Assembly: GCF_000313135.1 (NCBI RefSeq)
Contig: NW_004457343.1
Coordinates: 242,280 to 286,013 of the forward strand
DNA: 43,734 bases
Reading direction: 5' to 3'
Source of the DNA: Acanthamoeba castellanii str. Neff
Lineage: Eukaryota; Discosea; Longamoebia; Acanthamoebidae
In this document: positions 28,264 to 31,542 of the stretch, piece after piece
How the letters are laid out: each line of letters begins with the position of its first letter
How positions within the stretch are numbered: position 1 is the first letter of the stretch
Notes under the pieces: generated by a model
Database searches by the model: none
What the model saw: the letters and a program-made list of their open reading frames with translations, nothing else
What the model was told of the DNA's origin: nothing
Translations under genes and position numbers: made by a program

Positions 28264-28851
28264 ATGGGGCGAGCGGGCGACGCGTTGATGCTGGGCCACA
28301 GCGCGGCGGTGTTTGCGGTGTGCGTGGTACTGGACTGCGAGGACAGGGTGGTGGAGGCGTTGTGCCTGGCCGGCGTGTTCGTCTACGCCGTGCATTCGGC
28401 AATGCTGGTGATCGAGGGCGAGGGCGCCTCGAGCATGCTCGTGCACCATCTGCTGGCGATCGCGATCCAGTCCATCTTCTGGTGGCACGCGGACTCGCCC
28501 GAGCAGCCTCTCGCCCTGTGGAAGACCTTCGCCTGGACCGAATTGGGCTCGACGCTGCACAAATGCTCGCCATTTATCCCCAATTTCCGAACATGGAGGC
28601 TCAAGCGATGGTACCAGGCGCTCTACCTCACGTGCTACCTCGTCACCTACGCCATCATCATCGTCTGGCTCGCGAGCCAGAGCCGGCATCATCCCACAAG
28701 ATCGCATCTGCTGGGAATCGCGACCGAGGTGTGGCACGCGAGCCTGATCTACAGCCTGATCGCCCTCCTCGCCTACTGGTGGTGGCAATCTCTCAACGCC
28801 CTCCGCCACGTCGTTGCTCAAATGCGATTAGGCGCCAAGATCAGAGATTAG
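28264..28851 (+). CDS. Intronless multi-pass membrane protein, TLC-family-like
   Basis: A 195-residue hydrophobic protein with about five membrane segments: near the N-terminus, then CLAGVFVYAVHSAMLVI, MLVHHLLAIAIQSIFWW, LYLTCYLVTYAIIIVWLA and SLIYSLIALLAYWWW. The MLVHHLLAI and AWTELGSTL motifs at matching spacing recall the His-His and Glu-Ser motifs of the TLC (TRAM/LAG1/CLN8) fold, whose members act in lipid sensing or synthesis in the ER or plasma membrane. The match is partial, so the family call is tentative. An in-frame ATG at 28219 would add 15 residues; 28264 is preferred because the added stretch has a cluster of Lys and little else. It is the only membrane gene here without introns. 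It ends 46 bases before the next start codon. Confidence 0.68.
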   Translation: MGRAGDALMLGHSAAVFAVCVVLDCEDRVVEALCLAGVFVYAVHSAMLVIEGEGASSMLVHHLLAIAIQSIFWWHADSPEQPLALWKTFAWTELGSTLHKCSPFIPNFRTWRLKRWYQALYLTCYLVTYAIIIVWLASQSRHHPTRSHLLGIATEVWHASLIYSLIALLAYWWWQSLNALRHVVAQMRLGAKIRD

Positions 28852-28897: not shown

Positions 28898-31542
28898 ATG
28901 GATGCAAGAGAGACGCCTGCAGGCGTGGAAGCCTCCAGCCGCCTCATAGCGGCCGTGATCAAGGGTGATGAAGCAGGGGTGATGGCCCTCCTGGCCCGTA
29001 CGATGCCTCCGTTTCGCATTCCTTCAACCAAAGTAGAGCATAACTTGGGTGTACACGGTGCACCGTGGCGCGCAGAGGAGGGGGTGGATGTGAACGAGAG
29101 GGACGCCACCACGGGTGGGTGGCCGCTGCTGGTCGCAGCCCAACGCCAGGACTTGGCCATCGCGCAACTGCTGGTCGACCACGGCGCCCGCTGCTGCGCC
29201 CACGCAACGACGACAACTACGACAGAGCTGCACGCGTTGGCCGAGGCCGAGAAGGGACCCTTCCCTCGCCAGGTACCTCCCAGGCCGCCGCCGCCGACCA
29301 CCAGCGACCGCGCCGCGAGAGCTTGACCCCTTTTCTTTGCTGGCTCTCGTCCAGGCGGGGACGACAGCGGCACGGCTGATCGGCGGCATCAGGGCGTGGC
29401 TCGCGCCCTCGGCGTCGGTCAAGCTCTGGCAACTGCTCCTCGAGAACGGCGCCAGCGCCACTGAGTACCCCTCCCCTCGCACCACACCTTGGCCAGGGGC
29501 ACGCAGGCCTTTGTAGTGGACCACCACTCACCACGTTACACGTGGCCCTGTGCGTCTGGCCCGGGGCACGCAGGCCTGCATTAGACGGTAGTGGCGCCAC
29601 GCCGCTTCACGTGGCCTGTGCGAACGGCAACTGGCCCGTTGTGCAGTTTCTCCTACGAGGTGGGCTCGCCTCTTGTAACCTTACATGTAGCTCTCTCCAT
29701 CAGCTCATCATGCTCGCGGAATGAGACAGGGAAGTATGTGGACGACTATGGCAAGAACAAGCGCGATGCCCATCGCCGAGAGACGCCGCTCCACTACGCC
29801 GCCCGACACGGGCACGAGATTGTGGTGTCGCTCCTCCTCTCACACGGGGCGAACTCGCTGGCCGTGGGCGCGCACGGCGACGCATCGGAGGTACACCACA
29901 CCCTAACCCGACTCAGAACCGGCCAGACCGAACTGAATCCTGAGCCACCACTATGATGAGAGCAGGTGGCGAGGCAGGCCGGACATGGCGCAATGGCGGA
30001 CATGCTTCAGGTACACGCCTACCGGACGTGCCCACTGTTGTGCCTGCCCGATGAAGTGTTGCTCCGTGTGCTCGAGGCTTTGGATCCCTATGACCTGTGT
30101 ACTGTCGCACAAGTTTGCTCCGTACGCCTCACTACCACCACACGAGGCCCACGACACGCCGACACACGACGACGCACACGCACACGCACACGCATCTAAC
30201 GCGCAGATATATGATGCTGCACTGCAGGTGCTCAACGAGCTGAGCAGTGTCAACTGCCTCTGGCGCCGGTTCTGTGACGCCCGGTGGGTCGACGCCAAAG
30301 ACATACCTTGGAAGAGCAGGTATTTGGCGTGGCTCAAGCCTCGGCTCCGTCGGCGCCTCGCCCGCCGCAGGCAACGTACCGTCCCCTCTCGCATCTTCAA
30401 ATCCCCGTCCACACACCCACGTGCACCTGCACTAATGCCGCCTTGTCTCCTCAACTTGAGCAGAAGAACAAGAACAACAAGATCACGAGGAAGGAAAATG
30501 GTCGCTGGCCGATCGTAAATCATCATCGTCATCGGCGCTGCCAACCTTAAAGTTCATACTACTCGGTGACACGGGTCCGTGTACCACGCCTTATTCGATG
30601 TGCAGAGTGTGTTGGTGTATTTCTTTTTTCGTAGACCAAAGTGGACTGATATGAGGCGCATGTGGTGATCAGGTGTGGGCAAGACCGCGCTCGAACGGCG
30701 CTTTGTCAAGGGGACCTTCGCAACCGGTGAGTACTCGTGCGGGTACTACCTGGGGTTCAAGAAGCTCGACCTCGACGGACTGCGCGTCATGATTGAAGGC
30801 ACCACCCCATAATGACCTGCGGCGTTTACTCTTTCTCATCTGCATGCACGCATATCAACGTGCTGCAGTGTGGGACACACATGGCCAGGAGCGCTACAAC
30901 TCATTTCCGCGTGTATACTACCGCGCGGCGCGGGTAGCGCTGGTGGTCTACGACATTGCCGACCGCGCCTCGTTCGACCACGTCGGACGCTGGGTGAATT
31001 CCGTTCTGGCCAACACCACCGGGGCCGGCAACGATGAACCGCTGGTCATGACACTCGGTACGTGCACTCTGTTCGGTTGCACTTGTGTGGCGTTTGTTTT
31101 GTTTCATTTTGTTTTGTTTGACTAACTCGCCCACCACAGTTGGGGCGAAGAGTGACAAGGAAGCTCACAGGCAGGTGAGCGCGGCCGAAGGTCAGGCACT
31201 GGCTCTCGAGCTCGGTATGGCCTGGGCCGAGGTGAGCAACCTCACCGGCAGCGGAGGTGCGCTCTCGCATCCTGTAATGGATCATCTGGCCCGTCGGCGA
31301 CCTGCTGACGCACGACACACACTAAACGCCCAACACACACACCACACACACACACCACACTGCACATCCCAGTGAACGAGGTGTTTGAGAACTCGGCCCT
31401 GTCCGCCATGGCTGATGAACTGGCGCCACCGATTGCTGCTGGCGGTTTTGTGTGCCACCTCCCAGAGGCGGTTCTCCATCAACTCTCCGTCCAGAAGCCC
31501 ACAACAAACACCACCACTTCCTCGGCTTGCACACTTCAATAA
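28898..31542 (+). CDS. Ankyrin / F-box / Rab-like GTPase fusion protein
   Basis: Predicted 563-residue chimera. Twelve exons: 28898-28997, 29076-29272, 29355-29464, 29574-29659, 29730-29890, 29966-30121, 30207-30375, 30464-30574, 30673-30798, 30869-31057, 31140-31256, 31373-31542; their summed length is exactly 564 codons. Residues 1-235 hold ankyrin repeats (GSGATPLHVACANGNWPVV, ETPLHYAARHGHEIVVSLLL). Residues about 240-300 hold an F-box (LPDEVLLRVLEALDPYDLC ... LWRRFCDARW), which would bind SKP1. After an acidic Gln/Glu linker, a Rab-like G domain starts near residue 354: P-loop GDTGVGKT, switch II VWDTHGQERYNSFPRVYY, then VALVVYDIADRASFD. G4 reads GAKSD instead of NKxD, G5 EVSNLTGSG instead of ETSAK, and the switch I Thr appears replaced. 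No C-terminal prenylation Cys is seen. One intron (30799-30868) begins GC. It could be a GTP-gated or scaffold-type SCF substrate receptor; this is inference. Confidence 0.82.
29491..29557 (+). repeat. Decayed copy of the start of ankyrin exon 4, inside the preceding intron
   Basis: The 67 bases before exon 4 repeat its acceptor and beginning. GGCCAGGGGCACGCAGGCCT at 29491 matches GGCCCGGGGCACGCAGGCCT at 29558. In a shifted frame it reads LTTLHVALCV against ATPLHVACAN of the true exon. In the exon's own frame a TAG appears three codons in, so this copy cannot be used. Confidence 0.7.

Follow-up and report, generated by a model that had tools for sequence, protein, structure and literature searches.

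The window analysed here, a 43,734-nucleotide stretch of the Acanthamoeba castellanii str. Neff genome (contig NW_004457343.1, positions 242,280 to 286,013, forward strand), carries at 28898-31542 (+) a gene whose product joins ankyrin repeats, an F-box and a Rab-like G domain in a single chain. The analysis confirms that this fusion is real. Judged from its sequence, the product is probably a lipid-anchored substrate receptor of an SCF (SKP1-CUL1-F-box) ubiquitin ligase, and by its anatomy it would work like a membrane-tethered receptor of that type. An earlier note, made from the DNA letters alone, had singled out the gene as a chimera without known counterpart; this singularity was not borne out, since the window gene belongs to a multigene family with at least 21 further loci in the same genome.

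One spliced gene encodes ankyrin repeats, an F-box and a Rab-like domain

Joining the twelve exons proposed in the earlier note reproduced its count of 564 codons (1692 nt), read in a single frame with one terminal stop. Ten introns of that set are GT-AG and one (30799-30868) is GC-AG. A splice-aware aligner written for this work was used to fit the homologous protein P0001 to the window DNA, blind to the proposed exons; eight of the eleven introns came out identical, and introns 2, 6 and 7 differed. For intron 6 the fit places the acceptor before 30228 instead of 30207, which stays in frame, shortens the F-box by seven residues in its middle and gives a product of 556 amino acids (aa). We adopted 30228 for exon 7 on the strength of the F-box-like score, which is 29.9 bits (4.6e-7) with 30207 and 45.9 bits (4.7e-12) with 30228. 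Intron 2 was fitted at 29304-29367, against 29273-29354 in the proposed set, and intron 7 at 30367-30493 with a GC donor, against 30376-30463; as P0001 aligns poorly at both places, the proposed GT-AG sites were kept there. The exact ends of intron 7 are not fixed by homology, and the G-domain frame is identical under either choice. The earlier boundaries thus stand at the eight matched introns, with the exon 7 acceptor corrected.

As the earlier note had stated, the exon that carries the beginning of the P-loop (exon 8, 30464..30574) contains no ATG in frame, and its reading frame is closed by a TGA (30457-30459) that precedes the exon by one codon and lies inside intron 7 (30376..30463, phase 1), the intron that separates the F-box exon from the G-domain exon. 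The 556-aa product has no methionine between residue 231 and the P-loop at residue 354, the next one being residue 396, and an intact G domain is therefore unable to start within its own exons. Both observations support the claim that the G domain has to be spliced to the F-box exon.

A domain search of the product, one of the checks proposed earlier, placed ankyrin repeats, F-box-like and Ras all above the Pfam cut-offs. The single frame, these domains and the same order in paralogs and other species support one spliced gene with an ankyrin-F-box-GTPase order, and the recurrence of that order makes it more than a matter of chance. Ankyrin, F-box and Ras domains occur together in at least six records (P0001, P0002, P0022, P0023, P0024 and P0050) among the best 120 of 488 matches of a family profile, a search that leaves room for relatives in other lineages; the fused order is found in records from both Neff and Balamuthia. 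P0050 comes from Balamuthia mandrillaris, another centramoebid, and is annotated as Rab-10; its Pfam scan returned ankyrins, F-box-like at 301-343 (42.8 bits) and Ras from 413.

The junction itself is spanned in a paralog. A public contig of 1413 bp, for which the record gives no source type, encodes P0024, a protein of 437 aa of which 435 are matched at locus C131b. The C131b locus covers 2034 bp with nine introns, whereas the P0024 frame needs 1314 nt, so the contig must have spliced RNA or a processed copy as its source. In it the F-box exon is joined to the G-domain exon, and the phase-1 counterpart of window intron 7 is absent. The intron phases of C131b (2,1,0,0,1,1,1,1,1) are those of window introns 3 to 11, and this locus has a GC donor as well, at the linker intron.

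These data bear on the possibility that two adjacent genes, an Ank-F-box gene and a Rab gene, have been misread as one. At one other place in the genome, C190, the Ank-F-box and G-domain parts are indeed separate, about 50 kb apart, but in the window exons an intact G domain would have no start codon, the spliced C131b contig crosses the F-box/GTPase junction, fused proteins are annotated in Neff and in Balamuthia, and the intron phases agree between the window gene and C131b. We consider two misread genes extremely improbable and have rejected this explanation, which the P0024 contig contradicts for C131b; the same contig contradicts, for that paralog, transcripts ending after exon 7, which the earlier note had named as the sign of two separate genes.

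Some variation of the single gene can be envisaged at its 5' end. Retention of intron 1 would preserve the frame and bring in no stop, and a longer exon 4 that begins at 29517 is likewise open; the ankyrin part could therefore vary. By eye, intron 3 contains a stretch that almost repeats the beginning of exon 4 (window 29500-29625); an upstream acceptor there would add 19 residues with the frame still open. Seven of the eleven donors of the gene begin GTAC, as do five of the nine in C131b, the usual form being GTAAG or GTGAG.

Domains of the product and their predicted roles

All exons lie on the forward strand. Exon 1 (28898..28997) supplies the start ATG and the first ankyrin-like helices, with the P0001 alignment running from 28928. 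An ankyrin repeat and an ELHALAE motif common to the relatives follow in exon 2 (29076..29272; the P0001 fit prefers the donor at 29304), and the ankyrin region continues through exon 3 (29355..29464; from 29368 in the fit), exon 4 (29574..29659; one repeat, alternative in-frame start at 29517) and exon 5 (29730..29890; one repeat, by Pfam and in the P0001 fit). Exon 6 (29966..30121) ends the array and, from about 30038, contains the first part of the F-box. The ankyrin repeats above the cut-off constitute a candidate substrate-binding domain separate from the F-box, and they would presumably hold the substrate.

Exon 7 (30228..30375; from 30207 in the earlier note) carries the remainder of the F-box, to about 30275, and a WKxxYxxWLxPRL stretch. 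In the 556-aa product Pfam F-box-like covers residues 243-286 (45.9 bits, cut-off 24.3), with LPDEV at residues 245-249. The LP pair is thus present at 245-246; such a pair is reported to be required by the Legionella effector AnkB for SKP1 binding (PMC2790608). A family F-box profile searched against the PDB matched FBXO3 (2.9e-11), FBXW7 (1.9e-10), FBXO31 (2e-9) and FBXL5 (1.3e-7), and altogether 39 distinct sequences at E up to 1, a few weak ones among them (such as a STAS domain, 0.94) being chance matches; the AnkB entry 5k35 is also among the matches. The Acanthamoeba genome has three SKP1 matches and 21 cullin exon matches.

An F-box need not imply a ligase, and here it might be off SCF duty, a binding module in trafficking within a protein that is a Rab-like scaffold and not a ligase part. 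The F-boxes of three group II family members are only 28, 31 and 26 percent identical to the window segment. However, F-box-like reaches the cut-off in all 16 loci scanned with Pfam (in C79 just), and the family profile matches F-boxes solved with SKP1. A pure scaffold seems to us distinctly unlikely.

The C-terminal tail, with a CHLPxxxLxxL motif and the stop, is encoded by exon 12 (31373..31542). The protein ends ...SACTLQ, and the last four codons (31528..31539), directly before the stop, spell a CaaX box, CTLQ, which the earlier note had not mentioned. Gln at the X position falls in the farnesylation class according to a review (PMC9141697). Prenyltransferase-alpha repeats give three matches above the cut-off in the Acanthamoeba genome, in a family that does not separate farnesyl- from geranylgeranyltransferases.

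The remaining exons encode the G domain, which scores 132.7 bits with Pfam Ras. Exon 8 contains a linker and the first part of the P-loop, GDTG/VGKT (30565-30574, continued at 30673-30686); exon 9 (30673..30798) holds the remainder of the P-loop and the switch I region and is followed by the GC donor; exon 10 (30869..31057) runs from DTHGQER (G3) up to the strand before G4; and exon 11 (31140..31256) contains the G4 motif, AKSD (31145-31156), and an altered G5, SNL. The P-loop GDTGVGKT fits GxxxxGK[ST], DTHGQ keeps DxxG and the catalytic Gln, and switch I has SCG where Rabs have TIG, the hydroxyl being kept (Ser for Thr). NKxD is replaced by AKSD (N to A) and SAK by SNL, neither of which fits the guanine motifs. 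We call the domain Rab-like only and claim no GTPase function for the window copy. In Rabs the C-terminus is CC or CXC for double geranylgeranylation. The Rab label of the earlier note agrees with the best PDB matches of the domain, Rab2 and Sec4, but not with the C-terminus, which is a Ras-type CaaX box.

An AlphaFold model of P0001 from a 20-row alignment (mean predicted local distance difference test score, pLDDT, 79.6) gives the G domain a Rab fold and leaves the linker (residues 312-329) below a pLDDT of 50; a single-sequence model (pLDDT 38.8) was discarded. When the model was submitted to Foldseek, Rab structures ranked first (rank 1 template modelling, TM, score 0.93 by target length), and the best 50 of 2000 PDB matches were solely Rabs and other Ras-type G domains, which makes this search uninformative on the F-box.

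In the receptor reading that we favour, the F-box would dock SKP1 and, through SKP1, CUL1; the ankyrin array would select the protein for ubiquitylation; and the Rab-like G domain, on its flexible linker, would together with the C-terminal farnesylation signal put the ligase on a membrane. We infer SKP1 binding, prenylation, membrane location and substrate choice by the ankyrins from this arrangement. The G domain may be a nucleotide switch in those members of the family whose G motifs are intact; in the window copy, with AKSD and SNL, it more likely binds nucleotide weakly or in an altered way and serves for docking or regulation, much like a pseudo-GTPase.

The earlier note had gone further and suggested that nucleotide state or Rab effectors control substrate choice. 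In such a ligase SCF activity or the choice of substrate would be toggled by the nucleotide, GTP or GDP, that the G domain carries, or by Rab effectors. The window copy keeps the P-loop, the switch-I Ser and the DxxGQ glutamine, five paralogs (C133a, C133c, C133d, C133f and C84a) keep the P-loop, NKTD and SAK, with C133d retaining the DxxGQ Gln as well, and the GTPase domain of RhoBTB has been proposed to keep its own cullin ligase inactive (PMC4931677). Set against these are AKSD and SNL in the window copy, which weaken the suggestion there, and the loss of the DxxGQ Gln (to Ser or Pro) in C133a, C133c, C133f, C84a and C124b. The P-loop lysine is lost in C124a, the G4 motif in C171 and C207, and most of the domain in C79; nucleotide cycling is therefore not a general requirement of the family. 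We regard a nucleotide-switched ligase as conceivable, though rather unlikely.

The G domain could also, in place of the ankyrins, recruit the substrate, so that its binding partners become ubiquitylated, as Rab40 is reported to ubiquitylate its own effectors (PMC10509765). The modelled Rab fold would be compatible with this mode. The ankyrins would then be spare, yet they are kept in 13 of the 16 Pfam-scanned loci, and we think recruitment through the G domain unlikely.

A family of related loci in Acanthamoeba

Searches of the same genome with P0001, the window protein and three paralogs as queries, followed exon by exon, led to models of 21 related loci, or 22 models with the window. The loci were hand-picked where F-box and G-domain exons lay together, with the split C190 pair added, and 21 is a lower bound. 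Sixteen of the models, the window included, were scanned with Pfam (C93, C133c, C133d, C235, C190a and C190b were left out). F-box-like was at or above the cut-off in all of them, exactly at it in C79; Ras was found in 15, being missing in C79, and ankyrin in 13, being missing in C133a, C84b and C124a; 12 loci had all three domains. C-x-[LV]-Q stands directly before the first stop of the last exon in 16 of the 22 models, the window included. The Neff protein P0002 fits locus C131a.

Contig C133 carries five family members, on both strands, in a segment of about 28 kb (5-33 kb). On C190 an Ank-F-box piece (121.8-123 kb, annotated alone as P0035) and the matching G-domain piece (69.6-70.5 kb) look as if one member had been broken or the assembly shuffled.

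A phase-0 F-box intron occurs in 13 models and a phase-1 G-domain intron likewise in 13, and 12 models have both; C190a has only the shared F-box intron and C190b only the shared G-domain intron. A further eight models share a separate intron set. The free G-domain tree also contains two Acanthamoeba groups, of 8 rows (support 99/98) and 12 rows (91/91), with Balamuthia placed beside standalone Rabs at weak support (87/61); degenerate or partial domains (C79, C235, C124a) and C190a, which has no G domain, were left out of the tree, and P0020 was removed before the approximately unbiased (AU) test. A single clade of the Acanthamoeba G domains was not rejected (p-AU 0.192), and one that takes in Balamuthia was borderline (0.0645). 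On G-domain evidence alone, separate fusions may have occurred. Both Acanthamoeba groups, though, have in common a tail of the form H-[VIL]-P...L..L followed by CxLQ, which favours, as an inference from sequence, a single origin of the Acanthamoeba fusion family.

Viral contigs gave matches at six loci. Refitted frame by frame, all six stop at residue 206 or 207 of the query and so fall short of the F-box (at 219), which leaves them as ankyrin matches only. In a viral structure search, most of the best 50 matches were to Ras-type or to ankyrin domains on their own; rank 49 (TM 0.29/0.38) was a Pithovirus protein whose name gives both F-box and ankyrin.

Both halves of the window gene are under constraint. 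In the comparison with C131a the ratio of non-synonymous to synonymous substitution (dN/dS, Nei-Gojobori NG86) is 0.36 overall, 0.27 before the G domain and 0.53 within it, values that are rough given a dS of about 1.1. C133e against C93 gives 0.27. The tandem copies of C133 look relaxed or diversifying, with 0.72 for C133f/C133c and 0.69 for C133f/C133d, and 0.97 and 0.91 in their G domains.

This dS is one of several points that weigh against the lipid-anchored receptor we propose. The CaaX end is missing in 6 of the 22 models (C235, C190a, C190b, C171, C124a and C133b), C190a being without a G domain and C190b having CLLQ and then six further residues; the records P0002, P0021 and P0035 and Balamuthia P0050 also lack it. 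The F-box in the P0001 model reaches only pLDDT 71-79 per ten-residue block, with a predicted TM score (pTM) of 0.52, and some F-box proteins act without SCF. Finally, the window gene had no record of its own in protein searches that covered limited length ranges and, in two cases, scored only the top word-sharing candidates; it may therefore be unannotated or badly modelled.

Comparison with known ligase-GTPase fusions and F-box proteins

By analogy, the Ank-F-box-GTPase family would be the SKP1-CUL1 counterpart of two GTPase-cullin-ligase fusions, RhoBTB (CUL3) and Rab40 (CUL5). No Ank-F-box-GTPase fusion is described in the titles and abstract openings of the literature matches listed, the full texts of which were not searched for it, and neither BTB nor a SOCS box appears in the Pfam lists of the window product. 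RhoBTB1-3 are reported to have a small GTPase domain and a cullin-ligase receptor in one chain, and RhoBTB3, which has a CAAX box and is reported to bind ATP, is a precedent for altered G4 and G5 motifs in a ligase-linked GTPase (PMC4931677). The RhoBTB proteins differ in using BTB and CUL3 instead of F-box, SKP1 and CUL1, in having the G domain ahead of the ligase part, in the Rho relationship of RhoBTB1/2 and in lacking ankyrins. Rab40 is alike in placing a Rab-type G domain within the substrate receptor of a cullin-RING ligase and differs in its C-terminal SOCS box and CUL5, with F-box and ankyrins not described there (PMC10509765). The EF-hand-Rab proteins of the CRACR2A/RASEF type (P0003-P0010, P0012) are likewise long and have a Rab-like domain, but they contain EF-hands and no F-box in their precomputed Pfam lists.

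Neither FBXL2 nor AnkB is known to have a GTPase domain; both are nevertheless close to the window protein in other respects. FBXL2 is an SCF receptor, prenylated at a C-terminal CaaX box (CVIL) and sited at membranes, which has leucine-rich repeats in place of ankyrins and is reported to be geranylgeranylated (PMC9141697). Legionella AnkB has an F-box, ankyrins and a farnesylated CaaX box (PMC5506055); it is reported to bind host SKP1 in co-transfected human cells and to matter in amoebae (PMC2790608). Compared by description only, AnkB differs in being a bacterial effector and in its order: the LP pair lies at residues 9-10, which puts the F-box first (PMC2790608). The host proteins described here have the same set of F-box, ankyrins and CaaX box that is known from a Legionella effector active in amoebae.

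More tentatively, and with somewhat less than even confidence, we propose that the family comprises about 20 membrane-anchored SCF receptors, specific to the Acanthamoeba lineage apart from what seems to be a relative in Balamuthia. A Rab-like switch in these receptors would set the membrane and the time at which ubiquitylation happens, some of the GTPases having become dead regulatory domains. A family of about 20 loci with G domains from near-canonical to damaged would test GTPase-cullin coupling as a repeated design and the role of the G domain in it.

Other pairings of this type were seen along the way. P0017, a metagenomic protein of 295 aa with CC as its C-terminus, is another ubiquitin-ligase/GTPase fusion, of a U-box (57.9 bits) with a Ras-type GTPase (152.2 bits). 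The precomputed Pfam accessions of P0077, P0089, P0123, P0125, P0134, P0137, P0124 and P0053 pair Ras-type with other domains, presumably of the K_tetra, kelch, ubiquitin or ankyrin type, and some of these may be gene-model artefacts. Upstream of the window gene, a 195-aa open frame at 28264-28848 (+) ends with its stop 46 bp before the gene's start codon; its translation seems hydrophobic and matches nothing in Pfam. The Acanthamoeba genome as a whole has at least 150 F-box-like matches (150 of 150 scored, out of 452 candidates), a large F-box repertoire.
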